DNA of 64,000 nt. It comes from Gammaproteobacteria bacterium. Its GTDB lineage: Bacteria > Pseudomonadota > Gammaproteobacteria > HyVt-429. Both the position numbers and the translations under genes were made by a program. Shown here in pieces: positions 5,286-61,997 of this stretch. The notes under the pieces are model-generated. The model did not search any database. It had not been told where the DNA came from and was given only the letters and a program-made list of their open reading frames with translations. The DNA lies in assembly GCA_013152415.1 (NCBI GenBank), contig JAADGI010000029.1, positions 62,001 through 126,000 on the forward strand. The letters are read 5' to 3'. Positions within the stretch are counted from its first letter, which is position 1. Each line of letters starts with the position of its first letter.

Positions 5286-8208
5286 ACGCCAAGTCCACCT
5301 CCTTGCCTATGGCGAGGATCTGTTATCGCGACTGGCCCAATGCATATTGAGCGACCATGCTGCGGCGCTACCCGACCTACATCATATTGTAGTGGTCTTT
5401 CCTCACCATGCCAGTGCAGCACGCTTTCGGCGGGTGCTGCTGACGCAAGCTATAAAACAAGGTCACGCTGCCCTGCTGCCTCCACACACCACCACCCTGA
5501 CACGCTGGGTGTCCAATCTGTGCCCCCACCCTGGCAAGCTATTGTCTGTCACCGCGCGCACGGCTCTTTTAAGACAGGCCTTGCTCGCCCACCCCAAGCT
5601 TTGTGACCCACAAGACAGTTGGGCCCTGGCCGATAGTCTGCTGAAACTGTTTGATGAACTCCAAACCAGCAATCACCGTATCGCCGATAAGCTCAGCGAA
5701 TTTCAAACTACCTTGGCCGAGGCCTATGGCACTGAATCCCATGCCAAGGAGCAACTGAGCCACGAGGCCAATCTGATCCACACCCTGTGGCACAGTTGGA
5801 CGGAGCAATTGTGTGAACAAGGATTGACAGATCCGGTTCAGGCCTATGTCAGCTCACTGAACCAAAGCCTCGACCAAGCCCGCGATAGTTGGATTTACCT
5901 GGCCGGTCACGTCAGCCTGAATGATGTCGAGCGGGACTGGGTCAAACAATTGCTGGACAGCGGCCGCTTGCAGGTCTTCATGGAAGGTCAATACGGCCAC
6001 CACGACTACCACCCGGACACGGTAGTCACGCAATTATTGGATCGCCTAGGCAAACCAAACCCTGTGGCGGCACCCGTCAACGCCTATGGCCGTTTACTCA
6101 ACACGGTCTATGACAATAGTGAGCAAAGCTGGTGCCAACGTATTGCTGACCAGGCTGCGGCCACAGCCCAAAGCCCGGCGGCAGATAAACTCACCCTTCA
6201 CCTCGCTGTGGATGCGGAACGTGAGGCCCAGACCATAGATCTGTTGGTGCGACGGTGGTGGCTACAGGGTAAGCGACATATTGGTGTCGTCACCGGGGAT
6301 CGGAAACTGGCTCGCCGTGTTCGCGCATTGCTGGAACGGGCCGGCATTCAAGTCCAGGATGCTGCCGGTTGGCGACTGGCCACCACCAGTGCCGCATCAG
6401 CATTGATAAGCTGGTTTGACACCGTTGAGCAAGATTTTTCTCAAGCCCCCCTGCTCGACCTGATGAAATCGCCGTTTGTTGCCAGCCCCCAAAACGATAA
6501 CGACAACGGTTGTGACCCGGACGCAATTCACGGTCTATTTGAACATGAATGTGTACTGAAGGCACAAATCACCGGCCCACTGGAGCATTATCAGAACCAT
6601 ATTAGGCAAAACCGATTGAGGCTGCTGGAGACCTACGGCGTAGATGGGGTGACAGCCCTTGAGGCCCTGCTCGTGCAATTCGAGCTTGCCGCAAAAGCTT
6701 TGCTCAAGCTACGTGATGGGCAGCACCACCCTGGGGCCCACTTTCTGTCGGCACTCCACCACAGCCTGGATCAACTGGGGCTAGGGCAACGATACCGCCA
6801 AGATGCCGCCGGCCAGCAACTCATCCATCTGTTATCTGAGATGGGCCAAGCTGCAGCTGAGCACAACCTAAACTACACCTGGGACGAGTTTCGTGCCTGG
6901 CTGAACCGCCAATTGGAACAACACAACTTTCAGCCCCCATTACGTGGCCAGGGCATCGAGCTCATGGGGCTGATAGAAAGCCGACTGTATTCTTTTGAAG
7001 CACTTATCATAGCCGGCGCAAGCAGTGAGCATCTACCGGGGAAATCCCCCAGTTCGGCCTTTTTTAACGATGGGGTACGCACCCAATGGGGCCTGCCAGG
7101 GACAACGCAATCACGCAATACCCTGTTTTATGATTTTCGCCGTCTACTTCAGTCTGCTCCCCAGGTCGTCGTCACCAGCCACCGGGAAGAGCAAGGCGAA
7201 CCGGTGATCAAAAGCCCCTGGTTGGAACGCCTGCAACATTTTCATCAGCAAGCTTACAACCATGACCTGGATGACCCAGAACTGACAATATCAGCCGGTA
7301 GCGCCGACACCCGCATACGGTATACGGACCAACTGCCTCTGCCCACACCCCATACCGTGCCCCGTCCCGTGCCTGATGTGCGCCTGATCCCCAACCATGT
7401 CTCTGCGGCAAATCAACAACGCCTGCTCAACTGCCCCTATCAATATTTTGTCTATGACTGCATGGGCATCGCCCAAACACCGACCTTATCAGAAGATCTC
7501 GAGAAGTCCGATTACGGTGAGCGGGTCCACCGCATCCTGCATGCCCTTTATGCCGATGTGGCCGGACTGGCCGGACCCTGGCAAGGGCCCATCAATGAAG
7601 GCAATCGCCAACAGGCTGAGGCTATGCTCAACGACATATCGAAACAAGCCTTCTTGGCGGATACCCGCAATAACATCTTGGCCAGAGGCTGGTTGTACCG
7701 CTGGTTGGGCTTAATCGACAAGTTTGTAGACTGGGAAGTGGCGCATCAAAAAGATTGGCAACCCGATACCACCGAACTTAGCTTTGACCAGCCACTCGGT
7801 GCCGACCCAACAATCCAGGCACGCGGGCGCATTGATCGGGTTGATAAAGGTCGGAATGGGTTCGCTATTATTGATTATAAAACCGGCGCCACATCCAGTG
7901 TGACTGATATCGAACAGGGGGAACAAATTCAACTGCCATTTTATGCGCTGCTCCATAGTGGGCCAGTCGACAAAATTTTCTTTCTCAGCCTGTCAGAAGA
8001 CCGGGTCAGAGAAACCGGCAACCTCGAAGGTGACTCTTTAAAAAAGGTCGTCACACTATTACAGCGCCGAATAACAACGACGGCAGCGGAACTGAAAAGT
8101 GGGGCAGCACTACCGGCATGGGGAGACGAGAAGACCTGTGGCCTGTGCCAACTGGAGGGCCTCTGCCGCAAACAAATGTGGCAGGCCAACGATAATGCCA
8201 GCACCTGA
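5275..8208 (+). CDS. addB: AddB-like nuclease/helicase-dead subunit
   Basis: Partner of AddA in the double-strand-break resection complex that replaces RecBCD in many bacteria. The N-terminal two thirds is an inactivated superfamily I helicase fold with no Walker A. The C-terminus is a RecB-type PD-(D/E)XK nuclease with IIDYKTG near residue 866 and QLPFYAL after it. Four cysteines, [10 protein letters not shown] near 718 and C-x2-C-x5-C near 954-962, fit the AddB iron-sulphur staple. I chose TTG 5275, overlapping the fdxA stop by 11 nt, with AGGAAAA upstream. An ATG at 5221 in the same frame would overlap fdxA by 65 nt. addA follows after a repeat-containing gap. Confidence 0.9.
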
Positions 8209-8296
8209 TGCAACCACATGGGGACACTTCCATTAATACCCTCTCCCTCCGGGCTGGTCTTTCCCCACACATGGCTCCGTACAAGCGAAAAATGGA

Positions 8297-8382
8297 CTCT
8301 CGCCAAGGCGCCAAGAACGCAAAGAAAGAATGGGGAAAGAAACAACAGATTTTTCTTGGCGTTCTTGGCGCCTTGGCGAGAG
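8297..8382. repeat. Perfect 24-bp inverted repeat (dispersed palindromic element)
   Basis: Positions 8297-8320 (CTCTCGCCAAGGCGCCAAGA + ACGC) are exactly reverse-complementary to 8359-8382, with a 38-nt loop. Each arm also has its own internal GGCGCC palindrome. It sits between addB and addA and could fold in mRNA as a strong cruciform. It has no T run on either strand, so a repeat element is more likely than a terminator. Confidence 0.85.
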
Positions 8383-8503
8383 AACCCGTTATCGGACCCA
8401 TGGCATTGCGAAAAATAATCGATTGCGCATATTCACGATACCAAACACTTACCAGGGGCACGGAGTTAAGAGTGTGCCAGGACCTACCCACCGAGAAGGC
8501 GCC

Positions 8504-11500
8504 ATGGTGAAGGAATCAATCAAGGCCGTATCACCCCAATGGAATGTCACCGTGCAGGCCGCGGCCGGCACCGGTAAGACCTGGCTGCTGGTCAGGCGCA
8601 TCCTGTGTCTGCTTATCTCCGGCGTGGCAGCCGATGAAATACTCTCCATCACCTTCACTCGTAAGGCGGCCAGGGAAATCGGTATACGTGTCAACGAAAG
8701 CCTCTATGAACTGGCACTTGCAGATGACTCAAGTATTCACAAACTGTTGACCGAGACCGGCCTCCCCCGTGACCCAGATCATGTAAAAAAAGTCAGGGGT
8801 CTGTATGAACAGATCCTGAGCTGTGAGCGCCCCCTCAGGACCACAACCTTTCATGCCTTTTGCCAGGAACTGCTGCAACGGTTCCCATTCGACACCGAGG
8901 TCCCCACAGAATTTGAGTTGTTGGAACAAAGCTACGAGCTGGAATCTGCTGCCTGGCGCAGGCTTTGTGCCCAGGCCGCCCACCAGCAAAACGGCTTGCT
9001 GGCCGAAAATATGGACCGACTATTGGACTATTGCGGCAGCCACAATACCCGCCTGTTGCTGTTGAGCTTCCTGAACCATCGAAGCGATTGGTGGGCCTAT
9101 ACCGAAAACCAACAAGACCCCCTTGGCTACGCCACCCAAAGGGCAATGGACCATTTCGATATCGACCCACAGGCCCAACCCATTGAGGACTATCTCGGTA
9201 CCCCTGAGTTTGTCAGCACTATCGGGGAGTACCTGCAACTGCTGGAGCTTCAGGGACACAAAACGGCGCTTCGCCATCATCGCTGTTTGCTCACCAGCCT
9301 GGATGACACCCAGCCGAGCCATAAACGTTTTGATAGTGTCCGTCAGGTTCTGTTCAAGGTCGATGGCCAACCACGGCAACTCAAATTAAGCGCCGCACTA
9401 CGTAAGCGGTTGGGTGCATCAGCAGCAGACAAGGCCACGGCCTTACATGAACGTCTGTGCAACACACTGTCACAGATACTGGAACAACAACGCCGCGTGG
9501 ATAACTTGCACCTTAACCTGGCGTGGTTTCGGTGTGGCACGGTACTGCTCGATGAATTCCAAAGCCTCAAACGAACACAAGCTATGTTGGATTTTGCCGA
9601 TCTGGAATGGCAAGCCTACCGCCTTTTAAATCGAAGTGGGAATGCCAACTGGATACAATACAAACTCGACCAGGCCATCGGTCATGTGCTGGTAGATGAA
9701 TTTCAAGACACCAACCCCACCCAATGGCAATTACTACGCCCCCTGCTTGAAGAAATTCTTTCCGGCAACCCCGAACGGGAGCGCAGCATATTTCTAGTGG
9801 GTGACGCCAAGCAATCCATATATGGTTTTCGGCGAGCAGACCCTGGGCTGATGGCAGAAGCAACACAATGGCTGAGCCAGTGGCCCAACACTGCGCTTGT
9901 CCAACAATACCACTCCTGGCGCTCATCCAAGACCATTATCGATTTTGTCAATATCTTGTTTGGTGATGGGCCAAATCAACAACCATTGGATGATTTTAGC
10001 CCCCATGAAACACACCGGGACGATCTGTGGGGACGAGTCGAGCTGCTGCCACTGGTCATTGCCGCAGAGGACCCCGCTACCCATAATTCCACCGAATTCA
10101 GGAACCCACTGACTCATCCCCGCATCGTAACTGAAGATCAGCGCTACCAACGTGAGGCCGACTTGATTGCAGACAAGATCATGGGTCTACGTGGTCTACC
10201 CGCCGGTGCCGAAAATAAACCCCTGGATTTTGGCGACATCATTATCTTGCTTCGGGATCGTGGCCACGCCAAGGCCTACGAACAAGGTCTACGACGAGCG
10301 GGCATCCCCTACACGGGGGCCGGACGTGGGACCCTTCTGGAGAGCCTGGAGGCCCAGGATATCACTCACTTACTGCGCAGCTTGATTGCACCTTTTGATG
10401 ATCTTGCCTTGGCCGGAGCCCTGCGCTCACCCATTTTTGATTGCAGTGACGACGATATGATGGTGCTGGCACTTAAAAAAGATGGGGCCGGATACTGGCG
10501 GCAACGCCTCGCCACAATCAGCGCACAACACCCCAGGCTATACCGTGCTCATTGCCTGCTGCAACGTTGGCAATCCTTGACCGACAAAATTCCCGTACAT
10601 GATTTGCTCGACCGAATTTACACCGAGAGCAACATTGTCGACCGTTACCAGGCCGCCGCACCCGAACACTTAAGCCAACGTGTCGAGTCTAATCTCACAC
10701 GCTTGCTCGAACTGGCCCTGGACATGGACGGTGGCCGCTACCCCAGCCTACGACGATTCGTAAACCATCTTGCAGGCCTGCAGCAAAATGCCCTGGCCGC
10801 CCCTGATGAGCCACCGGCGCGAGATCCAAACCGGGTGCGCATCATGACCATCCACGCCGCCAAGGGCCTGGAAGCAGCGGTGGTGTTCCTGGCCGACAGC
10901 GCAAGGCCTAAACCACCGGAGCAGGCTTATCGAACATTGGTGGATTGGCCATCGGGGTCACCACGACCTACCAGCATTCACATGGTTGGGCGCAAAGATG
11001 ATCTGGACCAAGCCACCGAAATAACCGTCAGCAAGGCCCTTCAGCGGCAGCAGCGCGAACAGGCCAACCTCCTCTATGTGGCCGTAACCCGGGCGCAACA
11101 GGTACTCATCATCTCCGGTTGTGCGCCTAAAAGGGGCGATGGTGGGTGGTTTAACCAAATGGGCCGATGTCTTATGGACGCACCGGCTGAGGACCTCAGC
11201 CTGGAGATCGATATTAATACCGATGGTGAATGGGTGGGGGCGAAAATGGGAGATCCGCTGCCACAACAACAACCCCTTTTTCAAGAACCTGATCCTGCAC
11301 AACCAACAATGGATCCCCGGCTGACGCAGCGGTTGATCACCCATGACGACTATAATAATGAAATCAATCCCAGCACGGACAATACAATACCGCAACAAGT
11401 AGATCTGACAGGGATGACAGATACTTCAGATAGCTCGGCTACCGACAGAGGCGAACTGATTCATGCTTGTCTTGAAGGCTTATCTAAAACCGAGGATCGT

Positions 11501-13741: not shown

Positions 13742-15727
13742 ATGCCAACCACTGGTCAACTTGCACTAAAGCCCGGCACTCGCATCCGTACCTTCGAAAT
13801 ACGCGGGGTCTTGGGTTGCGGCGGATTTGGCATCACCTATAAGGCTTGGGACCACCAACTCGAATGCGATGTCGCAATCAAGGAGTATCTGCCCAATTCC
13901 CTGGCCACCCGTAGTGCCAATCATATCACCGTCACCACGGTGACCAAAGCCGATGACGATATGGAGAGTTACGAAATCGGGCTGGAAAAGTTTCTCACCG
14001 AGGCCCGCACCCTGGCCAAATTTCGCAACCCCAGCCTGGTCGGGGTAAAACAATTTATCAGCGAGAATGGTACGGCCTACATGGTCATGGAATATGAACG
14101 TGGAGAGAGTCTGGCCAATACCATTAAGTCAAACCAGATGCCGATGCCAGAGAATCAGCTGAACAATATCCTCACACGTCTGCTCAACGGCCTCAACGAA
14201 TTGCATTCCCACAAGATCCTGCATCGTGATATCAAGCCCGCCAATATCTATATTCGTGAGAATGGCGACCCCGTGTTACTGGACTTCGGCTCAGCCCGCG
14301 AAACCCTGCGCGACCGTACCGCCAACCAGGAGATGACCAGCATGGTAACCCTGGGCTACGCACCCTACGAGCAGTACAACAAAAGAGGGCGCCAGGGCCC
14401 ATGGACCGATTTGTACTCTCTCGGTGCAACGCTCTATTACTGCGTTACCGGCAAAAAACCTGTCGACGGTATGGACCGCTATCTGGCAACCAAAGATGGC
14501 TGGCCTGACCCCCTGCAATCGGCGGTCGAACAAACCAATGGGCAATACAACAGCCCGTTACCCCAGATTATTGACTGGTTGCTCAGAATCGAGATTGCCG
14601 ATCGTCCGCAAAACACCCAAGAGGTGATCGGTGCCCTAAAAAATGGAAACGCGATCCCACAATTCGAAACTGACATCACTGTAATGTCACCCACCAAAGA
14701 ACGAGGTGATGCAGGTGGTGAAACTATCCTGCTGGCTCGCGGTGATGACGATGACGGCAGTCGTTCCAATATTCCTCGGAACTTGGGCAAGCTACAATCT
14801 GCCACAACAAATCTACTCCATCGCCTTGGGCAAAAATCTACCTATAGCCATAACAAATTACTAGCGGGGATGCCTCAATTCATTGCCCAACTGCGCCAGG
14901 GACAGTTTGGCTGGCAACATGCGCTGGCTGCAACCGGAACGTTGCTTGCGTTGGCAGTCATCATCCCTCTTGTCATTACTTTGCGCATCAATGCCAAACT
15001 GCCGGAATTTATTGCCCAAGCCGGCAAGCAGGGCACCCAACTTGATATTCAGATCGACGACGTATCTACCTCATGGCTGGGTGGCAATGTTAAGTTAAAC
15101 GGTATACGCATCGCCAACCCGGAAGGTTATCAAAGCAAATACCTGATTACCGCAGAAGAAATCACGATGACTTTCAGCAACACCTTCTGGTGGACCAGCG
15201 ACAATGTACAAATTGATGAGATTTCCGTATCACCCATGCAGGTCAGCTACGAGCGTCACCAGAAAAGCCGCCGCTCCAACCTTATCGTGAGCAACGAGCT
15301 GATTCGATCGGCCACAGACGACCCGGTGGATAGCAACACGGTGGTTATCGGCCAATTCAATTCTATCGGTGGTGAGATTCAAGCGGTCAGTTTCCCTAAG
15401 TCCGCTGAGGTGGTCACCAGCCCCCTGTCTGCCTTGGACCTGAATAATATCGGCACGGAACAACCCCTGTTGACGTCCAAGGCCATAGGCCAGATCTTAT
15501 CAGGTGTTGTGGATCACGCCATCGGTGTCGCCAAATCCTCGCGAGCACTGCGTCGAGCAACTCTAGGCGCCAAAGCCAGAACCAGCAAAAAGAAACCCGG
15601 CACAAATAAGGCGGGGAAACAAGGCGCCCAGGGAGGAGAAACCCCCAGCTTTGCCGACAAACTCAAGACTCTGCTAAGCACCCCGCCCTCTGAAAGTACT
15701 AGCGGCTCCGATGACGAAGATTTATGA
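13742..15727 (+). CDS. Ser/Thr protein kinase with AsmA-like periplasmic domain
   Basis: About 661 residues. A PknB-type kinase domain fills residues about 15-280: glycine loop GCGGFG (25-30), VAIKEYL with catalytic Lys47, HRDIKPAN with Asp163, DFGSA (181-183) and the bacterial activation-segment motif GYAPYEQY. After a linker to about 390, one membrane helix (392-415) leads to a C-terminal part resembling the AsmA/DUF748 start module: IDDVSTSWLGGNVKLNGI, then an ITMTFS...ISVSPMQVSYE strand. The tail is basic, then acidic. An in-frame TTG at 13718 is an alternative start and neither start has a strong ribosome site. An FHA protein follows on the same strand, suggesting a phosphothreonine relay. 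Confidence 0.88.
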   Translation: MPTTGQLALKPGTRIRTFEIRGVLGCGGFGITYKAWDHQLECDVAIKEYLPNSLATRSANHITVTTVTKADDDMESYEIGLEKFLTEARTLAKFRNPSLVGVKQFISENGTAYMVMEYERGESLANTIKSNQMPMPENQLNNILTRLLNGLNELHSHKILHRDIKPANIYIRENGDPVLLDFGSARETLRDRTANQEMTSMVTLGYAPYEQYNKRGRQGPWTDLYSLGATLYYCVTGKKPVDGMDRYLATKDGWPDPLQSAVEQTNGQYNSPLPQIIDWLLRIEIADRPQNTQEVIGALKNGNAIPQFETDITVMSPTKERGDAGGETILLARGDDDDGSRSNIPRNLGKLQSATTNLLHRLGQKSTYSHNKLLAGMPQFIAQLRQGQFGWQHALAATGTLLALAVIIPLVITLRINAKLPEFIAQAGKQGTQLDIQIDDVSTSWLGGNVKLNGIRIANPEGYQSKYLITAEEITMTFSNTFWWTSDNVQIDEISVSPMQVSYERHQKSRRSNLIVSNELIRSATDDPVDSNTVVIGQFNSIGGEIQAVSFPKSAEVVTSPLSALDLNNIGTEQPLLTSKAIGQILSGVVDHAIGVAKSSRALRRATLGAKARTSKKKPGTNKAGKQGAQGGETPSFADKLKTLLSTPPSESTSGSDDEDL

Positions 15728-15904
15728 TTGTCTGCATGAAATTCACCGCCACCCCCCAACCGACTTGTGACTGCCGGGGATTTGTGGGTACTATATTCGT
15801 GACATTGCTGCTGCCCTTTTCAAGGGCACAGTCAAAAAAATACGACCAGAAACAACTTGATCAGCAGTGTTTATGAGCAAGATAAATCCTTTTACATTAA
15901 AATA

Positions 15905-16573
15905 ATGTCAAAATTAATTCTAAGCCTTAACGGTACTCAGGTCGGTGAATACCCGCTCGATAAGGACCGCATCACTATTGGTCGGCGGCCCGAACAGGAT
16001 ATCCATATCGATAATCTCGCCATCAGTGGCGAACACGCAGCCATCGTCAATATTTACAATTATCATTTCATCGAAGACATGGGGAGCACCAACGGTACTA
16101 TCGTCAACGACAAAGAAATCAAAAAGCAAGTTTTAAATCATAATGACATCATCCAGCTTGGGAAATATGAGCTGAAATATATCAATCCCAAGGCGGCTCA
16201 GACCAATGACCTGGAAAAGACCGTGGTCATCCGGCCCAACACAGTTGATGGGGAGAATAAACCGGAGGAAGGCATTGCCTTTACCGGAGTTGATGAAGAA
16301 AAAACGACTGCGGCCCCGGCATGGTTGGAAATGCATAGTGGCCCCACTAAAGGGAAGCGGCTTAATCTTACAATGGCCTCTACTACCATTGGACGCCAAG
16401 GATCCCAACTTGCAGTGATCACCCGTCAGACAGAGGGCTATTACATCAGCAGCGGTGGCGGCAAGACCAAACCTATCGTCAACGGGCAACCCGTCGACAC
16501 CATGCTGTTACTGCAAAACGGTGACACACTGAACCTGGACACCATCCAGATGACCTTCAAAATAAAAGTCTAG
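15905..16573 (+). CDS. Protein with two FHA domains
   Basis: 222 residues, cytosolic. The first FHA domain (about residues 6-85) has all main phosphothreonine-binding positions: IGRRPEQ, SGEHA and GSTNGT. The second (about 135-222) keeps TTIGRQG, VNGQ and LQNGDTL but lacks the S-x-x-H and N-G-T signature, so it is probably structural. I chose the ATG at 15905 because MSKLILSLNG begins the first strand; the frame is open to a TTG at 15857. It lies about 180 nt after the kinase gene on the same strand and is the obvious candidate reader or substrate of that kinase. It converges with the FHA-cyclase gene at 26 nt. Confidence 0.9.
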   Translation: MSKLILSLNGTQVGEYPLDKDRITIGRRPEQDIHIDNLAISGEHAAIVNIYNYHFIEDMGSTNGTIVNDKEIKKQVLNHNDIIQLGKYELKYINPKAAQTNDLEKTVVIRPNTVDGENKPEEGIAFTGVDEEKTTAAPAWLEMHSGPTKGKRLNLTMASTTIGRQGSQLAVITRQTEGYYISSGGGKTKPIVNGQPVDTMLLLQNGDTLNLDTIQMTFKIKV

Positions 16574-16599
16574 TCCCTGTAAGCACCAAACCACCTGAA

Positions 16600-17559
16600 C
16601 TATTCTGCTCGGCGTGTAATCGTCTCGTCGTCAACATCGACACCCAACACCTGACCCACCTCCTGCCATGTCAGGGCACATACTTCCACCTCTCCCCTCT
16701 TCCCTTTGACCTCAATACTGCGTTCCTTACCCTGCCAACCGGCTTCAGGGAGACAACTGTAGGCTGTTTTGCTCATGACAACATTCCGATTGAGCACCTT
16801 ACTCGCGGTCTCCAGCCGAAATGCCAAATTGACCGCATCACCCAAAGCGGTGTTATCGGTCCCAATACCCACCGCCGCATGGCCGGTGTTGATTCCGACC
16901 CCAATAGATAACTCACGGTTAATCTCAGGATGATTGTTGCTCATCTTTTTTGTGGTTGCATTAATAGCCAAGGCAGCATTCAGTGCGCTATGCATAGTAT
17001 CCACAAGCTCTCCTTCGCCATCCCAACGGGCATAGACACAGTCACCAATAAATTTATCCACCATACCATCATTCATTTCAATATCATCATTGACGGACCG
17101 AAACCACTGCGCCATCATTTTTGTTAATGTCGCGATCGGGACCTGCTCCGACATTGCCGTATAACCACGAATATCGGCCACCAAAATAGTGATGAGCTTG
17201 ATATCCGTTACTGTCGCCAGCATCGTGCGCTCGGACGCATCCACAGAGTCGGGCAACTCACCTGACCTTTCTAACTGGAATACAATGGTAGTTTGTCCTA
17301 TTTTAATCTCATCACCATCTTTCAACAATTGGGGCGTGGCAATACGACGACCGTTCACAAAACTACCGTTTGAACTGCCCACATCGATAAGATAATAATC
17401 ACCTTCCCCAAGGCGCCGTATCATGCCGTGGTTCCTGGATACCAGTTTTTCATCTATAACAATGGTATTGTTCTTGTCACGGCCCACGGTCATGATGGGC
17501 TCTGCCACCATTTCCAGGTTTTTACCACTACTCAATTTAATTAACAGCAATGCGTCCAT
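16600..17559 (-). CDS. FHA-domain class III adenylate cyclase
   Basis: 319 residues, soluble. Residues about 20-92 form an intact FHA domain (VGRDKNN, SRNHG, GSSNGSFVNG). Residues about 120-305 form a class III nucleotide cyclase: metal ligands Asp129 (LVADIRGYT) and Asp173 (KFIGD), adenine-selecting Lys169 and Thr237, and transition-state Asn244 and Arg248 in GDAVNLAFRLE. All catalytic positions are present, so it should make cAMP. The FHA domain implies control by a phosphorylated partner. Next to a kinase and an FHA protein, a kinase-to-cAMP pathway is a reasonable inference, not shown. Confidence 0.92.
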   Translation of the reverse strand: MDALLLIKLSSGKNLEMVAEPIMTVGRDKNNTIVIDEKLVSRNHGMIRRLGEGDYYLIDVGSSNGSFVNGRRIATPQLLKDGDEIKIGQTTIVFQLERSGELPDSVDASERTMLATVTDIKLITILVADIRGYTAMSEQVPIATLTKMMAQWFRSVNDDIEMNDGMVDKFIGDCVYARWDGEGELVDTMHSALNAALAINATTKKMSNNHPEINRELSIGVGINTGHAAVGIGTDNTALGDAVNLAFRLETASKVLNRNVVMSKTAYSCLPEAGWQGKERSIEVKGKRGEVEVCALTWQEVGQVLGVDVDDETITRRAE

Positions 17560-18954: not shown

Positions 18955-20079
18955 TTATTTGCGGTTAAACAGCCCCTTTAGCTGTCCTTCGAGGCCACCT
19001 TTACTCTCGGCTTTGTCCCCGTCCTTATTGCCGAATAATTTTTTGCTGATTTCTTTCATCACAACCGACTTGCCCACCGCCTTAACCAGTTGTTCGGTGA
19101 TTTGGCGAACACAACTCACCCGCGCCTGATCGATTCGATCTATGTTTCCACTCAGGCTGCACACAAAGCCAGGCAGCTTGTTGTTTTCGGTATATTCCTT
19201 GACCGCACCAGCAGGGGCCCCCATAAATTTTCCTTTGTCGCTGGAAAATTTAATATTGCCGAGGGTTGTTTTAATGTTGGTAACATGATCTTTGTTCTTG
19301 ATCTTGGTCTGAATTCTGAGATCCAAGGTACCATCGGACAGTCTGGCGGTGGTTTTTTTGCTTCGGTAATAAGGCTCCGCATGGGGCAGAAAAATATCTG
19401 CCAGCTCCATCTCCAGATCGCCGGAGTTCGTCACCGGGTCATACCAGCCGGATAGCTCAAACCTGCCTTCACGGGGACCTTCAAGTTTCATGGATATATC
19501 CAACGGCATCTTGGTGGAAACAGGAGGAACACTGATGTCACCGATCTCGATATTCACGTCTTTGATCTTGAATTGGGCATAGGGCCGACCCACTGATTTG
19601 TCGACAAAATCACCACGCCCGTCATTTATCTCCACTTTAGCAATGTAGATAGCGAAGGCATCGCCCTCGGCAGCAGCCTGTTCAGCTTCGGGTTGGCTGT
19701 CCCCAGCCTCCGGGGCGGTGGGTTGTGGAATGGGCAAGACCACCTCACCGTCACCTTTTATCTCGATATAGACGTAGGGCTCGTCGATGGTGACCGAGCT
19801 GACTTTAAAGGTATCACTGAAAATGGACGACAGGCTGGGTTTGACCTTGATGGATTTCGATTCTAGCAGCACTTTACCTGCCGCCGAGCTGTACTTGACC
19901 GCCGTCAACTCAATACTGTTCCAACCCACATCCAAATCACCAAAGCTAAGGTTGGGCACCTGATCTTCAACGATCCCTCGAGCGATACTCGACAGATTGT
20001 TATAAGCAATCACCATAATGGCGATCAGAGTCAGGACAACGACACCGGCAATGATGCCAATCTTTTTTGTTCCATCCAT
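18955..20079 (-). CDS. AsmA/DUF748-like membrane-anchored protein
   Basis: 374 residues. One N-terminal membrane helix (about residues 6-27) is followed by a periplasmic beta-rich region that matches the AsmA/DUF748 type: the LSFGDLDVGWNSIELTAVKY and TFKVSSVTIDEPYVYIEI strands, then DVNIEIGDISVPP. A proline/alanine/glutamate-rich spacer sits near residue 130. The C-terminal 30 residues are lysine/glycine-rich. The ATG at 20079 follows GGGGATAAAAAG; a GTG at 20124 is in frame. AsmA relatives act in lipid transport or envelope assembly; this one is uncharacterised. It shares the fold of the kinase C-terminus 4 kb away. Confidence 0.75.
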   Translation of the reverse strand: MDGTKKIGIIAGVVVLTLIAIMVIAYNNLSSIARGIVEDQVPNLSFGDLDVGWNSIELTAVKYSSAAGKVLLESKSIKVKPSLSSIFSDTFKVSSVTIDEPYVYIEIKGDGEVVLPIPQPTAPEAGDSQPEAEQAAAEGDAFAIYIAKVEINDGRGDFVDKSVGRPYAQFKIKDVNIEIGDISVPPVSTKMPLDISMKLEGPREGRFELSGWYDPVTNSGDLEMELADIFLPHAEPYYRSKKTTARLSDGTLDLRIQTKIKNKDHVTNIKTTLGNIKFSSDKGKFMGAPAGAVKEYTENNKLPGFVCSLSGNIDRIDQARVSCVRQITEQLVKAVGKSVVMKEISKKLFGNKDGDKAESKGGLEGQLKGLFNRK

Positions 20080-20483
20080 CTTTTTATCCCCGTTTAATTT
20101 AACGGTCACCCTCAAAGGCGACACAAGTGTTGGTACTGGGTCGGCGTATTCTTTGCCTCTTTGTCGATATTAAGCTAAATCATAAGGCAACTGTGACCCA
20201 AAAAACAGCGTGGGCCAATAACCCCGACCATCGGCTAACCCTAAGCACCGGTAGCAGCGGTCAGTCGGTCAAGAGAGTTGGGTATCAACCGCCCCGCAGC
20301 CCACCCCGAACATGCTTAAGTGCAGCACCCCGATTGATCGAAAGAATATTGATATTTGCCCACTGCACAAGCCTCTAAATAACCCGACATCCGCACGACA
20401 ACACGCTTACTGACTGGACTTCGACCGGCAAATGACCATAATCAGGATGCGTATACAGACCAATAGGCCAAACACATAGCGAC
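20080..20483. other. Divergent intergenic region
   Basis: About 400 nt between the AsmA-like gene (minus) and the transglycosylase gene (plus). It must hold both promoters. No gene, tRNA, strong hairpin or recognisable operator was found. Confidence 0.4.
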
Positions 20484-55406: not shown

Positions 55407-55761
<355 letters not shown>

Positions 55762-55772
55762 CTTAAAGTCTA

Positions 55773-55798
55773 AAGCCGTCCTAGGACGGCTTTTTTCT
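55773..55798 (+). terminator. Rho-independent terminator of ssrA
   Basis: AAGCCGTCC pairs with GGACGGCTT across a 2-nt TA, followed by TTTTTTCTTTT. It lies 13 nt beyond the tmRNA, inside the island, so the island supplied or kept a terminator. Confidence 0.88.
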
Positions 55799-55863
55799 TT
55801 TCTGATACATAGAGTTACAAGTTTTTATTGCCCGACGCATATCATTAAGATTCATTGACATCC

Positions 55864-55894
55864 GGGGGCAACTGGGGGCAACATTAGGGGCAAG
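55864..55894 (+). repeat. Arm-like repeats, left end of island
   Basis: GGGGGCAAC at 55864 and 55874 and GGGGCAAG at 55887. The spacing is 10 and 13 nt. Matching copies occur at the right end (61916-61935). The arrangement resembles integrase arm-binding sites. Confidence 0.6.
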
Positions 55895-55906
55895 TGAGTT
55901 TCCAAG

Positions 55907-55970
55907 AAAGGAGCTGCCCCCAATGCCATTAACAGACACCACGATCTATCGAACAGCTTACTGGTGGTAA
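55907..55970 (+). pseudogene. Remnant of a tyrosine integrase gene
   Basis: A good ribosome site AAAGGAG (55907-55913) and ATG at 55923 start the peptide MPLTDTTI, which matches the N-terminus common to P4-like integrases (MPLTD-x-x-I). After about eight codons the sequence no longer fits and a stop comes at residue 16. The position beside the tmRNA end and the direction into the island are as expected for the integrase. The remainder is presumably deleted. Confidence 0.5.
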
Positions 55971-55991
55971 TGTGTCTAATTACGGCCAGTA

Positions 55992-56059
55992 GCATCGGCA
56001 ATCGGGCTGGCGGCACGACGTAAGGAGCGTCCGAACGAGCGCATTGTATGATGTTACTC
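55992..56059 (-). repeat. attC-like site 3, truncated
   Basis: It starts at GAGTAAC, overlapping the stop codon of the OLD nuclease gene, and contains GCGCT-N2-TTCGGACG-N-TC then TCG-x-GCCGCCAGC, like site 2 (57890-57956). A clear GTTRRRY end is missing, and the integrase remnant is next. A deletion may have removed the end. Confidence 0.5.
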
Positions 56060-57868
56060 TGCTACCAAGCTATGAAAATCATGGAACATTTCCGTGAATT
56101 CATACTTTACGTCCCCATTTTCAGTAAATAATTCTGCTTCGCGTATTTGGCCTGGACTCATTAAAACCCAATAATCCTCAATGACAGTAGAATGATTTGT
56201 ACCTTTCTCTACGGCTATTAAATTCTTTGCATCATCCGTATCAGTAAAAGTGAAAGTATTTCCTGCTTCAAGCGCAAGACAATCTAGGTGAATATAATTC
56301 TCTGGTTCTCTTTTTCTTGTGGTATATGCCTTAACGCCATCACCTTGAAGTTCAACGATTTTCTGATTATTTTTTTCCTCTTGCAGTGTTCCTTTATCAG
56401 AGTCGATAAGAACACAGTACGGGATGCCGAATTGTTCTGCCAATCTTAAAGTTCGCCAATGCTTTATACTGTCACATCCACCAATTGGAACTATTGCAAA
56501 ACGCTTGTCTTCAAATGTGTGGGCTAAATGACCGCCATTTTTTAATTGATTTGCGATGTGATTTACAAAAGTTACATCGCTCTTCCCCTCAACAAGTAGC
56601 AAAGCTTTTGCATTGTTTGATACTGGGTCAGGCAGTATTCCAAGCGAATCTGCTATTTTCCCAAACACTTCATCGGTTCCTGATTCTACTGTTCGGTTAT
56701 CACCATCGATATCAATAAATCTAAGGCTTTCTAGTGGGAGTAATCCAGCTAAAGCTGGTGTATGAGTCGTGAGTAATATTTGGCTACTTTCTGCAAACGA
56801 TAACTCAAGAAATGCATTGATTAGCATCTCCTGATGATCGGGATGCTGAGATGTTTCAGGCTCTTCAAAGGCGAAAATAATTTGATTGGTCTGACATTCT
56901 AATCTTCTTCTTTCTGCTTCTGCTCGAAAAAAATTAAGTAAAATTAGTCTTCTAACTCCACTCCCTCTTTTATTGATACTTATATCATTATCAGACTTGA
57001 TTGTTAGTTTAAATTGCGAATCAAACTTTGGCTCTGTTTTAAATTCTGGTATGAGCTGGCTAGCAAGTTCTGGTGACATTTCCTTTAGCTTCTCAAGCGT
57101 TCTATTTGCCGTCTCTATCGCTTTATTTCTTACTTGAGTTTTTATGTTCTCCAGCTCGACTTCAAGTTCACCGAGTGCCTGCTGAACAGCTATTTTCATA
57201 GGGTCAACAACTTCTTTATCATCATCTTTGCTTTGTCTGTCAGATTGGAACAGGGCGTATATGGGTAAATATGTCTTGATTGATTCATAAACTTTCTTGG
57301 TATCTTCCTTATCAACAAGTAATTCTGTCGTTTGAGTTTGTAGATCCCCAAGGTTTTGCCAAATCGCCTCTCTTATTGATGAGTTTAAATTGGCATTATA
57401 TGTGTCTTGATCAATTTCAAGTGTATTTGCTCGTTGGCGTAGTTCTGTTCTTTTTAGAGTTAGTAAGTCTTGCCCCTGTTCTACAGTGGGATGATCACAA
57501 ATTATGTATATCCTTTCTTTTGGTTTTGATGCTGTTGCAGGGAATACTTTTTTAATTTCTAATTTATGATCTGAGTTCAACAGATATTCATTTTGCAGAA
57601 CAGTTGGATTGGCGGCGTCAATTATTACTTCATTTGGTATATCCGTAAATATACAAGTAATCTCTATTTTATTGTTATCTGCATTAATATTTAGGTCGTC
57701 TTTCTCACAGGTGACTACAGTATTATTAAAGAAGATCTCTAAAGCCTCTAATACTGAGGATTTTCCAACATCATTTTTCCCAATGAATGCGGTCAGAGCA
57801 GTCAATTCTATAGGTGTTTCATTTTTATAGCCCCTGAAGTTCTTTAGCTTTACGCTTTCTAGTCTCAT
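56054..57868 (-). CDS. OLD-family ATP-dependent endonuclease (AAA ATPase + TOPRIM)
   Basis: 604 residues. The N-terminal ABC-type ATPase starts MRLESVKLKNFRGY and has Walker A IGKNDVGKSS (near 31-40), a helical arm (about 170-270), signature GSGVRRL, Walker B IIFAFEEPETSQHP and switch His TTHTPAL. The C-terminal TOPRIM nuclease has the Glu in LLVEGKSDV (near 427) and the D-x-D in CVLIDSDKG (near 490). This is the class 1/2 OLD layout seen in phage exclusion and in GajA of Gabija. The gene is strongly A/T-rich. The ATG at 57868 follows AGGAAG. No UvrD-like GajB is nearby. Confidence 0.9.
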   Translation of the reverse strand: MRLESVKLKNFRGYKNETPIELTALTAFIGKNDVGKSSVLEALEIFFNNTVVTCEKDDLNINADNNKIEITCIFTDIPNEVIIDAANPTVLQNEYLLNSDHKLEIKKVFPATASKPKERIYIICDHPTVEQGQDLLTLKRTELRQRANTLEIDQDTYNANLNSSIREAIWQNLGDLQTQTTELLVDKEDTKKVYESIKTYLPIYALFQSDRQSKDDDKEVVDPMKIAVQQALGELEVELENIKTQVRNKAIETANRTLEKLKEMSPELASQLIPEFKTEPKFDSQFKLTIKSDNDISINKRGSGVRRLILLNFFRAEAERRRLECQTNQIIFAFEEPETSQHPDHQEMLINAFLELSFAESSQILLTTHTPALAGLLPLESLRFIDIDGDNRTVESGTDEVFGKIADSLGILPDPVSNNAKALLLVEGKSDVTFVNHIANQLKNGGHLAHTFEDKRFAIVPIGGCDSIKHWRTLRLAEQFGIPYCVLIDSDKGTLQEEKNNQKIVELQGDGVKAYTTRKREPENYIHLDCLALEAGNTFTFTDTDDAKNLIAVEKGTNHSTVIEDYWVLMSPGQIREAELFTENGDVKYEFTEMFHDFHSLVAE

Positions 57869-57889
57869 GTGACTTCCTGTGTATTGTTC

Positions 57890-57956
57890 ATATAACGACC
57901 AAGCTGTGCGGCGTGAGCGAAGCGCAGTGAACGTCCGAATTAGCGCTTTGTTAGTT
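57890..57956 (-). repeat. attC-like site 2 between DUF2130 and OLD genes
   Basis: On the minus strand it begins AACTAAC six nt after the DUF2130 stop and ends GTTATAT 21 nt before the OLD start. Inside are AAAGCGCT-AATTCGGACG and CACGCCGCACAGCTTGGTCG, the typical order of attC inner boxes. End boxes are only partly complementary, so the site is divergent. Confidence 0.5.
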
Positions 57957-57962
57957 GCATTT

Positions 57963-59231
57963 CTAAGTGTCCAAATCGTTTTCATCAGCAGCCGGTAACT
58001 CTAGGAGAGGAACAGTTTGAACGGCATTACCAGCAATGCCTTTAATTGAGCCGTACATATCCGTAGTGTTTAGCAAAACTTTATCAATTTGTTTTTCTCT
58101 CTTTTTCCATATTCCTCTCATTGAACGCTGCTCAGATTCAAGATCCGATTTCATTTGCGTAAAACCCTCAACTATTGCTTCAATTTGTAGCTTGAATTCA
58201 TTGCTTGTAAGGAAATCATAAAGCATTCCCATTTTATCGCCTTTGTTATCCTGAGAAATTATTGCCGTGCTTATTTGAATAATTGATTCTCGTAAAACCG
58301 AACACAATGCTTTAAATTCTTCAAATGTACATATCCAGACACCATCCTTTAAACCAAGGCGCTCCATATCAGGTGGCATTACCTCTGTTACCAATACACC
58401 AATATTTGCGTTTTTATCCCGAATATCTGCCTTGAATTTCTCTATCCAAGTAGGTTGGAATGCTTTTGAACGCTTACTTTCGTAGTAAATAGTACCGCAG
58501 TTTTGTCTTGACCGTGTATGAACAATTTGAAGGCAATCAGCTCCACGCTCACCTTTTTTTATTTCCTGAATAGTGTCTAGAGGGAATTTGTTCGATAACC
58601 ATTCTTCTATACCCAATTCCTGCACTTCGCCTTGTGTTTGCATTGATCCTTGTTCTTGTTTTCTCTTCATCTCTTCAGTTAGTTTTTTTTGATCTTCCAA
58701 CTGTTTTTCGAGCTCTTTGAACTTTAATTCGTTTTTTTCATTCTCTTCTTTACGAATTTTTTCTTTTTCCTCTAGTAGCTTCTTATTGAGCTCTTTTCCA
58801 GACTCTGCCTTTATTGAGGCTTCCAGCTCATTCTTTTCTCTTTTGAGCTTTTCAAGTTCAATAGATGTTTTATAAAGTTCCTTGATTTTTCCGGATTTTT
58901 CTTCCAGTTCTTCACGCAATGATTTAAGGGCACCGGATTGCTCCTCTTCCGCTTCGGCCTTGTATTTTTTCTTTAGAGCAAGCTCTCTTTGTTTTACCTC
59001 TTCTTTAACTTGCTCCTCAATATTTTCTTTTTGCAGCTTTTTATCTGCCTCAAGTCTCTCTCGTTCTTTATCTAACTTAGTCGACTGTGCATCAATCTTT
59101 TCTTTCTCTTTAGCCAAATCATCGTTGTACTTCTTTTTAAGTTGCTCATCGACTTGGTGATACAAAATCTCATTTACGTCAATATCCTCACCACACTTAG
59201 GGCAATTTATTACGCTTTTTTCATGATTCAT
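57963..59231 (-). CDS. DUF2130 coiled-coil protein, probable nuclease
   Basis: 422 residues. An N-terminal zinc ribbon begins INCPKCGEDID; only the first cysteine pair is clear. A long Lys/Glu-rich coiled coil follows (about 30-215), then the DUF2130 domain (about 225-370). It has GADCLQIVHTR, then GTIYYESKRSK with a following WIEKFKAD helix, and VLVTEVMP. This D...E-x-K pattern fits a PD-(D/E)XK nuclease fold. Start ATG 59231 lies 16 nt after the attC-like site 1; the frame is open to 59300 through that site. A/T-rich like the OLD gene. The function is unknown; with a nuclease neighbour, defence is an inference. Confidence 0.85.
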   Translation of the reverse strand: MNHEKSVINCPKCGEDIDVNEILYHQVDEQLKKKYNDDLAKEKEKIDAQSTKLDKERERLEADKKLQKENIEEQVKEEVKQRELALKKKYKAEAEEEQSGALKSLREELEEKSGKIKELYKTSIELEKLKREKNELEASIKAESGKELNKKLLEEKEKIRKEENEKNELKFKELEKQLEDQKKLTEEMKRKQEQGSMQTQGEVQELGIEEWLSNKFPLDTIQEIKKGERGADCLQIVHTRSRQNCGTIYYESKRSKAFQPTWIEKFKADIRDKNANIGVLVTEVMPPDMERLGLKDGVWICTFEEFKALCSVLRESIIQISTAIISQDNKGDKMGMLYDFLTSNEFKLQIEAIVEGFTQMKSDLESEQRSMRGIWKKREKQIDKVLLNTTDMYGSIKGIAGNAVQTVPLLELPAADENDLDT

Positions 59232-59246
59232 AATATTCTCGATTGC

Positions 59247-59363
59247 AGCTAACACCACAATAAAACGCCAACATAAGGGGCAGCTATTTTGCGTAAACAA
59301 AATGGATGCGGTTTATGGCGGTCGGTAGGCGCGAAAGCGGCTGGCTTAATTGTCATGTTAGCT
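59247..59363 (-). repeat. attC-like site 1
   Basis: A 117-nt imperfect palindrome. The minus-strand 5' end AGCTAACA-TG-ACAATTAAGCC is complementary to the 3' end (plus strand AGCTAACA-CC-ACAATAAAACGCC). The end boxes are AGCTAAC and GTTAGCT, close to the cassette core GTTRRRY. The stop codon of the preceding gene lies in the first box and the next gene starts 16 nt after the last, as in integron gene cassettes. Confidence 0.65.
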
Positions 59364-59690
59364 GCCTGCCTTGGGTTCTTGCTTCTTGGTGTCCAACGGT
59401 GCAAACAACGCCACTGACGAAACGTAAACAAGCGATAACCCTGCTAGGGCGATGTAAACTTGAAACAAGCCGCCTAGCTTTGCGAGCAGACTTACATCAA
59501 TAGCACAAAGTATTATCACGATTGCCGTCGGCAAAGAGCTTGCTGATAGCGCCCGAACCATCAGCTCCTGAAACGTTATGCTCCTTTTAGATAGCTTGCA
59601 ATAAATAGGCAGTCCGGCAAAAGTAAAAACCGTCACAAAAACTGCGATGAGCCCAATCATTTCAGAAGTTATTGGCAGGTCGAGATTCAT
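59358..59690 (-). CDS. Small membrane protein, unknown
   Basis: 110 residues with three predicted membrane helices (about 10-30, 45-67 and 75-96) and a short polar tail KKQEPKAGS. I recognise no family. The stop codon is inside the attC-like site 1. It lies 2 nt after the preceding gene and probably forms a two-gene cassette with it. Membrane proteins of this size are frequent effectors or immunity proteins, but nothing shows that here. Confidence 0.65.
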   Translation of the reverse strand: MNLDLPITSEMIGLIAVFVTVFTFAGLPIYCKLSKRSITFQELMVRALSASSLPTAIVIILCAIDVSLLAKLGGLFQVYIALAGLSLVYVSSVALFAPLDTKKQEPKAGS

Positions 59691-59692
59691 TG

Positions 59693-60055
59693 TTAAAACC
59701 CTCCCAACAACACGACCATTGCGGCCACAAGGCTTGTGATTCCTGCCATCACCGCAGCGGAGTCCTTCAATTTCTCTAGCAGATCTAGTCTTCGCTCCTC
59801 CTCTGGCGAGGCAAGTGCTTGAACATCAATCGCCTCGGCAACATCCCTGAGCGCACGCTCACAATGCTGCGCCGCCCTCTGCAGATACTTTTTTTTTGAT
59901 GCATCATCGTCTGCCGCTATGTACTCAGCAAGATGTTTGCCTGCGTACCTCAGCTCATTGGCAGCCGCCACCGAGAACCTGCTTCCTCCTTCGAATAGCG
60001 CAATTGCACCTTCAGCCTTCAGAAAGAGCTCCTTGACTTCTTTGGGACTACGCAT
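59693..60055 (-). CDS. Small helical protein with C-terminal membrane anchor, unknown
   Basis: 120 residues. The first 95 are helical and charged (RSPKEVKELFLKAEG, KKKYLQRAAQHCERALRDVAEA), and the last 23 form one hydrophobic segment (AVMAGITSLVAAMVVLLGGF), a tail anchor. GGAGATT precedes the ATG. It is paired with the small membrane protein downstream. No family is recognised. Confidence 0.65.
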   Translation of the reverse strand: MRSPKEVKELFLKAEGAIALFEGGSRFSVAAANELRYAGKHLAEYIAADDDASKKKYLQRAAQHCERALRDVAEAIDVQALASPEEERRLDLLEKLKDSAAVMAGITSLVAAMVVLLGGF

Positions 60056-60318
60056 TGTTGAATCTCCTGTAGACTACTAGCTATTAGTAGTGGACCTAAA
60101 TGTCCAATTTGCTTTCGGTCATTTAGGGGCACTAAATTCTCTAGTTCAGTAAACCCAACGAATGACAAAGACAAAGATGAGTCAGGCCACGATAATGGTT
60201 TGATTCAAAATTGTATGCTTAGGTCTACTTTTGGTGCCATTACAACTGTCCGCATCTGATTTCAAATATCGTTCGCTAAGGGTCGGTAGCTAACACTTTC
60301 GTGTTAGATTATCACGCT
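60056..60318. other. Gap upstream of the cassette-like genes
   Basis: It contains three short inverted repeats: ACTACTA/TAGTAGT at about 60074-60092, CCTAAATG/CATTTAGG at 60095-60127, and CTAACAC-TTTC-GTGTTAG near 60290-60309 just after csrA. The first two lie upstream of the small membrane-protein gene and may be operators. None is a convincing attC site. Confidence 0.4.
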
Positions 60319-60519
60319 TCACCCGAACATCTCTTCACGCCCTTGGTTTGCCAAACGATCAGCCTGGATCTGTTCGTAGATTTCCTGACGATGCACCGGC
60401 ACTTCCCTGGGGACATCAATGCCGATGCGTACTTGTGTGCCTATAATTTCGAGTACAGTGACCTGGATGTCGTCACCGATGTTTAAGGTTTCGCCAGGGC
60501 GGCGCGTGAGAATAAGCAT
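60319..60519 (-). CDS. csrA: Carbon storage regulator CsrA/RsmA
   Basis: 66 residues. [18 protein letters not shown] and [22 protein letters not shown] carry all RNA-binding positions (Arg-44-type R in VPREVPVHR). It binds GGA motifs in mRNA leaders. The ATG at 60519 follows AAAGGAG. It lies inside the ssrA island, away from the usual alaS neighbourhood, so it is probably an accessory copy. The hairpin CTAACAC/GTGTTAG follows the stop. Confidence 0.93.
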
Positions 60520-60704
60520 AATGGACTCCTTTCCAATTGTTTTTGGATGATATTTCACACCCTTCGGCTTATCCAGTCAAGCACCTAAACGGTGTTTATC
60601 TTCGATTTTTATTGGGGATAAATATAGTACTGTGGTAATTCTAGCATTTCCACCCACTCTATATCCTCGGCCAACGGCCATGCACAGCATCTTCCTGCTC
60701 GGGT

Positions 60705-60935
60705 TCAATAGTGACAACAAAGACGTTGCTCGTGGTTGTAGCGTGCCACTAATCCTTGTATCCATTGGCCCGGGGTGAGTTCATACCAGTGGCTGCGACC
60801 TTCTATATCTTTTTCCATAAACCTTTGGACGACTAACTTCACCGGTCGGGGGAACCATTTATCCCAACGACCGGCATACACTGAGTCCAGACGTGCCCAG
60901 CCGCCTAAGGGTAATTTTCCTACTTGATGCTGACG
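60705..60935 (-). pseudogene. Gene remnant, start missing
   Basis: A 76-codon open frame with no usable start. The residues read like real protein, rich in Trp and Arg: GRWDKWFPRPVKLVVQRF, then SHWYELTPGQWIQGLVARY, stop after LCCHY. I do not recognise the family. It seems to be the C-terminus of a lost gene. Confidence 0.4.
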
Positions 60936-61042
60936 TCACCCCCAAGGCAGGAGTTGGCTATCACAGTTACGTGCCTTAACGGGCAGCTTGGTTTTGGGGT
61001 TCGGAAAGAAGACTCTGATCTCTAGAATAACCCAAAACATGC

Positions 61043-61066
61043 CCCAAACTTTGACCCAAACTTTGA
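61043..61066 (+). repeat. Perfect tandem repeat of CCCAAACTTTGA
   Basis: Two adjoining 12-bp copies, 39 nt before the ATG of the next gene, with a related CCCAAAACATG before them. This looks like a binding site for a regulator of that gene. Confidence 0.6.
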
Positions 61067-61104
61067 TCTTTTTTTATCGCCTTGATTGTATTATTGTTCT
61101 AATC

Positions 61105-61683
61105 ATGACAATAAGCTATTACAAATCACTTCGTGAAGACTACAAACCAAAGCCCTTAGAATTGAAGGCTGTATTTATAGCAGAATCTCCGCCTAGTAGC
61201 GGTCGGTATTTCTATGATCCCGAAGGTAGCCCTACAGGTGAAGTGCTATTTCGTGAGTTGCTGATTGAATCTTTGGGCCTCCGGTTCGGTCTTAAAAAGG
61301 AGGGTTTAGAAGCTTTTAGGGACAAGGGGTTTCTGCTGGTGGACGGAACCTATCAACGTATAAATAAAAACAAAAACGGAAACGACATCCCTTCTAAACA
61401 ACGAGATGTAATTCCCCTCATTCTAATTAAGACAACAGTTTTAAATGCACTCGCCAAACCCTTACATAGAAATGGATTCAATATTGTAAACTACAATAAA
61501 GCTAAAAATAGCTATGACCCCGTGTTTTTCCCAGGACGGAAGACTAAATATTTTCGAGCACAGCTCAGACCAATGCTAGAGTCTATTGGCATGGCGCCGC
61601 CAATAGAGCTAGTCGAGAAAGCTAGGATACCACTTAGCAAGCGTAGGACAGCAAAGACAGGAGGCGATAAGATTGATTGGTAA
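61105..61683 (+). CDS. Hypothetical protein, faintly uracil-DNA-glycosylase-like
   Basis: 192 residues, soluble. AVFIAESPPSSGRYFYDP near residues 21-38 recalls the water-activating loop region of the UDG superfamily (A-E-x-P-x-x-x-G), and a PGRKTKYFRAQLRPML helix follows near 150. No confirmed His motif near the end. The start ATG 61105 opens MTISYYKSL; the frame is open to 60988. A tandem 12-bp repeat stands in its leader. Function is a guess; a nucleotide-base or island-specific role is possible. Confidence 0.6.
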   Translation: MTISYYKSLREDYKPKPLELKAVFIAESPPSSGRYFYDPEGSPTGEVLFRELLIESLGLRFGLKKEGLEAFRDKGFLLVDGTYQRINKNKNGNDIPSKQRDVIPLILIKTTVLNALAKPLHRNGFNIVNYNKAKNSYDPVFFPGRKTKYFRAQLRPMLESIGMAPPIELVEKARIPLSKRRTAKTGGDKIDW

Positions 61684-61935: not shown

Positions 61936-61997
61936 AACGCATAAAAAGAATTAGCATTCACTTAGTTAACAGCTAGTTACCCTCATTTTTCGGTAGT

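Follow-up and report, generated by a model that had tools for sequence, protein, structure and literature searches.

Gene layout at the locus

The analysed window is a stretch of 64,000 nucleotides from a gammaproteobacterium (positions 62,001 to 126,000 of contig JAADGI010000029.1, assembly GCA_013152415.1), and the segment under study, at positions 13742-17559, encodes a Hanks-type Ser/Thr kinase, a protein with two FHA domains (the adaptor) and a class III cyclase with an FHA domain (the FHA-cyclase). An earlier note on this DNA had placed these three genes within 4 kb and proposed that the kinase may switch cyclic AMP (cAMP) production through the FHA domains. A Pfam search of the open reading frames (ORFs) of the window returned Pkinase, FHA, and FHA plus Guanylate_cyc domains at the expected places, and the three genes adjoin one another (Table 1). 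Kinase and adaptor are co-directional, with 177 bp from the kinase stop codon to the adaptor ATG; the cyclase gene lies on the opposite strand and converges with the adaptor gene, the two stop codons being 26 bp apart. The kinase start assumed in the earlier note is an in-frame ATG, and with numbering from that codon the HRD aspartate is indeed its Asp163. Not described in that note were the AsmA-like kinase tail, the linker threonines and the convergent orientation of the cyclase.

Since the genome holds few matches to Pkinase (9), FHA (5) and class III cyclase (4), random adjacency of all three is unlikely, with a rough estimate of about 1e-4 under an assumed number of about 2,700 genes. The verdict that the genes are unlikely to be chance neighbours covers the kinase and the adaptor and leaves the cyclase aside. 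A scan for promoter-like sites (9, against 5.0 in shuffles, standard deviation 1.9) and terminator-like sites (4 against 4.3) was left unused.

Table 1. Coordinates of the three genes, their domains and candidate motifs, and a nearby gene (positions in the window; aa, amino acids)
Feature	Position	Strand	Evidence and remarks
Hanks-type Ser/Thr kinase gene	13742..15727	+	ATG 13742; 669-aa ORF opens at TTG 13718
Pkinase domain (PF00069)	about 13796-14617	+	aa 27-300 of the 669-aa ORF; Pfam E 5.9e-37
Thr of D-I-T-V-M after kinase domain	14678..14680	+	motif scan; window and G001, not G002
Thr of G-E-T-I-L-L, kinase domain-to-membrane segment	14723..14725	+	3/3 homologues (D-A-T-M-L-L in G002); candidate FHA docking site
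Putative single transmembrane segment of kinase	14921..14986	+	by eye, from sequence only
DUF748/AsmA-like kinase tail	14936..15403	+	Pfam DUF748 E 0.0014, below cut-off
FHA-FHA adaptor gene	15905..16573	+	ATG 15905; ORF opens at TTG 15857; Pfam FHA E 3.3e-23; 16-row alignment
Intact FHA domain 1 of adaptor (FHA-1)	15971..16162	+	G42R43, S57xxH60, N79G80
Linker Thr122 of adaptor (L-E-K-T-V-V-I)	16220..16222	+	candidate phosphosite and FHA ligand
Degenerate FHA domain 2 of adaptor (FHA-2)	16325..16564	+	aligned to family; SxxH missing
FHA-class III adenylate cyclase gene (predicted)	16600..17559	-	Pfam FHA E 3.7e-21, Guanylate_cyc E 1.9e-14
Class III catalytic domain	16684..17199	-	D129, K169, D173, T237, N244, R248
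Linker Thr112 of cyclase (S-E-R-T-M-L)	17224..17226	-	FHA-catalytic linker; conserved; model confidence below 50
Cyclase FHA domain	17296..17490	-	Pfam; G26R27, S41xxH44, N64G65
DUF748/AsmA-like protein	18955..20124	-	Pfam DUF748 E 1.6e-20; synteny in G001 and G002

Domains of the adaptor and the FHA-cyclase

The residues of a phosphothreonine reader (GR, SxxH and NG) are present in the adaptor FHA-1 and in the FHA domain of the cyclase, and are not complete in FHA-2, which retains G179-R180 and N209-G210. Since relatives do not keep Arg180, FHA-2 is degenerate throughout the family. The description of one intact and one degenerate FHA domain in the adaptor, and of an intact one in the cyclase, was thus borne out. 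At E 1e-30, 126 of the 369 sampled gammaproteobacterial genomes, about a third, had a member of the adaptor family. Scored against the OdhI family NF041660 (NCBIfam) the adaptor reached 70.9 bits, with a cut-off of 200; it is not a member of that family, and it may nonetheless work like OdhI. A type VI secretion reading was rejected, as the TagH match scored 47 bits against a cut-off of 120 and no secretion genes occurred among the scanned neighbours.

The FHA-cyclase retains all six residues that one would expect in the catalytic site of a class III adenylate cyclase. We take D129 and D173 to bind metal, K169 and T237 to determine the choice of ATP, and N244 and R248 to act on the transition state; on this basis the protein was labelled an adenylate cyclase and is predicted to synthesise cAMP. 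Its AlphaFold2 model, calculated from 42 sequences, showed a mean predicted local distance difference test score (pLDDT) of 89.1, with residues 100-115 below 50, so that the linker bearing Thr112 is modelled as disordered. When the model was searched against the PDB, the best matches of the catalytic part were CyaC adenylyl cyclases, the FHA part matched OdhI and a structure of GarA bound to PknB, and full-length DgcB was also found.

Conserved threonines in the linkers

Conservation was assessed in 70 adaptors (>60 bits, 180-340 aa; duplicates and proteins with other domains left out), mostly top matches of the family search together with chosen loci and thus not a random sample. Thr122, the one nearly invariant position between the two FHA domains, is a threonine in 65 of the 70, and the position three residues after it (+3) is aliphatic in 62 of these 65; the rest of the linker further on varies. 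In the FHA-cyclase, Thr112 is the sole column of this kind among residues 95-119, with a threonine in 26 of 27 gammaproteobacterial sequences and one column off in the 27th. This count excludes three non-gammaproteobacterial rows (L106, L108 and L109, all with the threonine) and the distant rows L112-L156; many FHA-cyclases of Verrucomicrobia, also left out, carry a threonine in the linker as well. The motif occurred in 0 of 14 FHA-less control class III cyclases, which were selected from 27 loci for their recognisable core. The pattern of a self-binding switch, a threonine in a flexible segment with an aliphatic +3 residue, was therefore found in the adaptor; the cyclase shares the conserved threonine and not the +3 residue.

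Similar motifs follow the kinase domain of the window kinase (Table 1). Of 26 kinases with a CHASE2 domain, a group described below, 14 carry [DE]x?T plus three aliphatic residues immediately ahead of the kinase domain (0.15 on average in shuffles, at most 2), and none of the 26 has this motif inside that domain. The adaptor threonine also correlates with its neighbours: four of the five adaptors without it lack both a kinase and a PP2C phosphatase next to them, against 2 of 40 adaptors with it (Fisher p 5e-4, uncorrected for relatedness).

The kinase and its AsmA-like tail

The window kinase has the Gly loop, VAIK lysine, HRD and DFG motifs of a Hanks-type kinase, and GxGxFG, K55, HRD D171, N176 and DFG D189 (numbered from the TTG) are kept in 3/3 homologues. 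The region beyond the kinase domain matched DUF748 with 17.1 bits, against a Pfam cut-off of 50; the tail of the homologue at locus L085, on the G002 contig, gave E 2.4e-4. Judged by topology, the tail is probably periplasmic. A search with a profile of the tail returned matches in 20 of the 369 genomes, fused to a kinase in three (the window genome, G001 and G002) and otherwise found mainly in standalone proteins of about 260-290 aa and in a few long AsmA-like proteins. Five standalone relatives that were scanned matched DUF748 at E 1e-12 to 1e-15 (46.8-57.5 bits). A structure model of the tail, built from two sequences, had a pLDDT of 40.6 and was too poor for confirming the fold. A separate DUF748 protein is encoded near the cyclase in all three genomes with the trio, immediately upstream of it in G002. 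Since AsmA-type proteins are linked to envelope lipid traffic, we guess that the kinase may respond to an envelope signal; a kinase with an AsmA-like periplasmic domain, if real, would be an unusual envelope sensor.

Pfam gave no CHASE2 match on the window kinase, and each of the five PP2C matches of the genome lies on another contig, so that the locus has neither feature of the CHASE2-kinase/PP2C clusters. As a separate observation, the closest relative of the window kinase domain seen outside the family (43.5% identical; locus L028, G035:C78) adjoins a gene for a VWA-FHA protein.

Conservation of the gene order

The trio recurs with the same order and orientation in a second genome of the genus (G001; proteins 85-87% identical) and in another genus of the same family (G002; 40-53% identity). 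In a further member of the family (G003) the adaptor gene occupies the corresponding address, with dicarboxylate symporter-like and yajQ-like genes (named by eye) on its two sides, and has no kinase or cyclase beside it. In a tree of the 70 adaptors the four family members form one clade with a support of 1.0. Given this clade and the shared address, the adaptor therefore seems to be vertically inherited, with kinase and cyclase gained or lost around it.

Neighbours were scored with home-made profiles for loci of the adaptor, a set of 69 that excludes the window (45 long, 67 with at least 1.3 kb downstream), and for loci of the FHA-cyclase. Upstream of the adaptor there is usually a CHASE2-domain kinase together with a PP2C phosphatase (by Pfam in G014, by the profiles elsewhere), and a kinase, a PP2C or both stand beside it in 39 of the 45 long loci. 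In 14 of the 67 loci a class III cyclase gene converges on the adaptor gene from no more than 300 bp away: two are FHA-cyclases (G001 and G002), and 12, from seven families, are CHASE2-type or only partly read. In other Gammaproteobacteria the complete cluster thus consists of a CHASE2 kinase, a PP2C, an orthologous FHA-FHA protein and a convergent class III cyclase. Since the CHASE2 cyclases have no FHA domain and an architecture unlike that of the window FHA-cyclase, the order kinase, FHA-FHA protein, convergent cyclase occurs with different kinases and cyclases, and this repetition with non-orthologous parts suggests, on sequence grounds, that the wiring is real.

Other arrangements were observed around the adaptor gene in some genomes. 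At L076 (7286-8383), L082 and L083 the FHA-FHA gene comes after a kinase that has no CHASE2 match, and two more genes precede it as well; at L076 a gene for a PilT-like secretion ATPase adjoins the kinase.

Proposed mechanism and alternative explanations

We propose that the trio forms a phosphothreonine switch on an adenylate cyclase, analogous to DgcB and GarA, a reading to which we assign a probability of roughly one half. A membrane-bound kinase would sense a periplasmic signal through its AsmA-like tail and autophosphorylate a threonine motif beside its own catalytic domain, on which the adaptor FHA-1 could dock. The kinase might then phosphorylate Thr122 in the adaptor linker and Thr112 in the cyclase linker. 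Within the cyclase dimer itself, the FHA domain would recognise phosphorylated Thr112, and this contact could alter how the two catalytic domains are held, so that cAMP production is switched in one direction or the other. The adaptor may compete for or deliver the kinase, and might be locked by phosphorylated Thr122 as in GarA and OdhI. We propose phosphorylation of the two threonines and their reading by FHA domains because of the self-binding logic of DgcB, GarA and OdhI and because of the PDB matches.

Several findings weigh against this proposal. The convergent cyclase gene is not co-transcribed with the FHA gene, the G003 adaptor has neither partner, and the +3 residue after Thr112 is not conserved among FHA-cyclases. 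As the five adaptors lacking the threonine belong to three clades, the correlation with neighbours rests on two or three events. Among 28 close FHA-cyclase loci, some of them short, kinase and adaptor stand beside the cyclase only at L085; a different kinase lies alongside at L108 (Lentisphaeria), and a constant coupling of FHA-cyclases to a kinase was therefore ruled out. In other Gammaproteobacteria (L086-L104, L111, L159; e.g. L097:11212-14700) the FHA-cyclase has a different conserved neighbourhood. Finally, the window genome encodes relatives of the CHASE2 kinase (56% identical, contig C22) and of the CHASE2 cyclase (about 55%) that are unlinked, on other contigs, and within the stretches read there no FHA-FHA gene was found near them. 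We take this to mean that the adaptor has exchanged its partners. These orthologues could be the true partners, and they are the main reason for doubting that the neighbouring kinase is the sole one.

In one alternative, kinase and adaptor belong to a pathway of their own, and the FHA-cyclase is under a different kinase, such as the contig C22 CHASE2 kinase. The convergent cyclase gene, the kinase-free neighbourhoods of FHA-cyclases elsewhere and the nine kinase-domain matches of the genome, including one about 56% identical to cluster kinases, all fit it; the convergent non-orthologous cyclases that follow FHA-FHA genes in seven other families, and the persistence of the trio in G002 despite 40-53% identity, argue the other way, and we regard this alternative as unlikely, if serious.

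Less probable still is a role of the adaptor in regulating some enzyme or machine in the manner of GarA/OdhI, with an indirect or absent control of cAMP and the cyclase as a mere neighbour. The adaptor often lacks a cyclase neighbour (53 of 67 loci), among solved structures OdhI and GarA come nearest to the FHA domain of the modelled cyclase, and two genes stand between kinase and adaptor in G017, G046 and G048, one of them in G017 encoding a PilT-like ATPase. Cyclase neighbours nevertheless recur, and the FHA-cyclase shares with the adaptor the design of an FHA domain plus a linker threonine.

That the linker threonine is a structural or docking residue working unphosphorylated appears very improbable, since it is absent from FHA-less cyclases, sits in a low-confidence linker and belongs to a motif whose like occurs in kinases and an unrelated FHA protein, even though Thr112 lies 12 residues before the first conserved threonine of the catalytic strand, is kept in FHA-cyclases without neighbouring kinases, and the DgcB tail binds its own FHA domain unphosphorylated too (PMC6733907).

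Thus, for the trio as an FHA-gated switch, the two halves of the original proposal fared differently. A path from Ser/Thr phosphorylation to cAMP through FHA domains gained from the recurrent kinase-FHA-cyclase order elsewhere and from the conserved linker threonines, and is a plausible interpretation, better supported than before. The control of this cyclase by this kinase is less secure, as kinase and adaptor were not seen beside the FHA-cyclase at the close loci examined outside the family and the genome has other kinases, the CHASE2 orthologue included; this pairing is the weakest link. A wider generalisation, which we consider tentative and rather improbable, is that Gammaproteobacteria connect Ser/Thr phosphorylation with cAMP through a general, hitherto undescribed wiring around a single FHA-FHA adaptor, with sensor and cyclase swapped by lineage, here for an AsmA-like envelope-lipid sensor and a soluble FHA-cyclase gated by its own linker phosphothreonine.

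If true, a direct, FHA-mediated control of a bacterial adenylate cyclase through Ser/Thr phosphorylation would link two kinds of signalling that are mostly investigated separately, and the DgcB-type switch would have its equivalent in cAMP signalling. The linker threonines pinpoint the exact residues for testing, and a common pathway, should the recurring order mean one, would concern an adaptor family present in roughly one in three of the sampled genomes.

Further observations in the window and its genome

In the other gammaproteobacterial loci of the FHA-cyclase, a DUF2786/DUF7168 gene lies just upstream in 18 of 22, and a large protein (about 1000 aa) that combines cNMP-binding with rhodanese domains, a candidate cAMP receptor, is encoded about 2 kb away in 16 of 22. 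An orthologue of this large protein in the window genome was rejected, the best match in the searched stretches being about 28% identical over 370 aa. The same genome has a second adjoining pair of a kinase (9731-11011) and a class III cyclase (6537-9698) at L084 (G000:C31), with a cNMP-binding domain encoded in the kinase frame as well. Elsewhere in the window, the G+C content drops to 0.38-0.44 right after the gene for transfer-messenger RNA, over positions 55407-62000; this region contains an OLD-like AAA/TOPRIM gene (56054-57985, AriA/GajA-like in PADLOC) and a DUF2130 gene and is probably an island with a defence gene.

Comparison with known systems

We know of no name for the cluster of CHASE2 kinase, PP2C, FHA-FHA protein and CHASE2 cyclase. 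It resembles the window trio in its orthologous adaptor, gene order and convergent cyclase, and differs in the kinase sensor, the presence of PP2C and a cyclase without FHA. A literature search, which included passages of the surveys PMC1262709, PMC2176072, PMC2877116 and PMC13075795, found no published account of either system. The type VI PpkA/PppA/Fha pathway shares the logic of a kinase and an FHA protein (PMC5995506), whereas the window trio has no secretion genes among the scanned neighbours.

Within the FHA-cyclase, the catalytic fold is that of the CyaC-type adenylyl cyclases (PDB 1wc1-1wc6) and of P. aeruginosa CyaB (3r5g). GarA and OdhI are actinobacterial FHA proteins with a self-binding logic (PMC6733907), Ser/Thr kinase substrates whose targets are enzymes of 2-oxoglutarate metabolism; like them, the adaptor has an intact FHA domain and, in a flexible part of its own chain, a conserved threonine. 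They have one FHA domain and an N-terminal threonine (PMC6733907), whereas the adaptor has a second, degenerate FHA domain and its threonine in the linker.

The nearest precedent is DgcB of Bdellovibrio, an FHA-GGDEF diguanylate cyclase in which a phosphorylated tail threonine binds the protein's own FHA domain as a proposed on-switch; that study describes the +3 position as crucial for FHA recognition and the kinase of DgcB as not known (PMC6733907). Both proteins are nucleotide cyclases with an FHA domain and a conserved threonine in a flexible segment of their own. DgcB has a GGDEF output and its threonine N-terminal to the FHA domain, whereas the window enzyme has a class III output and its threonine between the FHA and catalytic domains. 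With CyaC and CyaB the window enzyme presumably shares the Lys/Thr pair, and to our knowledge those two have other input domains and no FHA. We class the locus, from its predicted proteins, as a putative FHA/phosphothreonine-gated cyclase system in a new variant.

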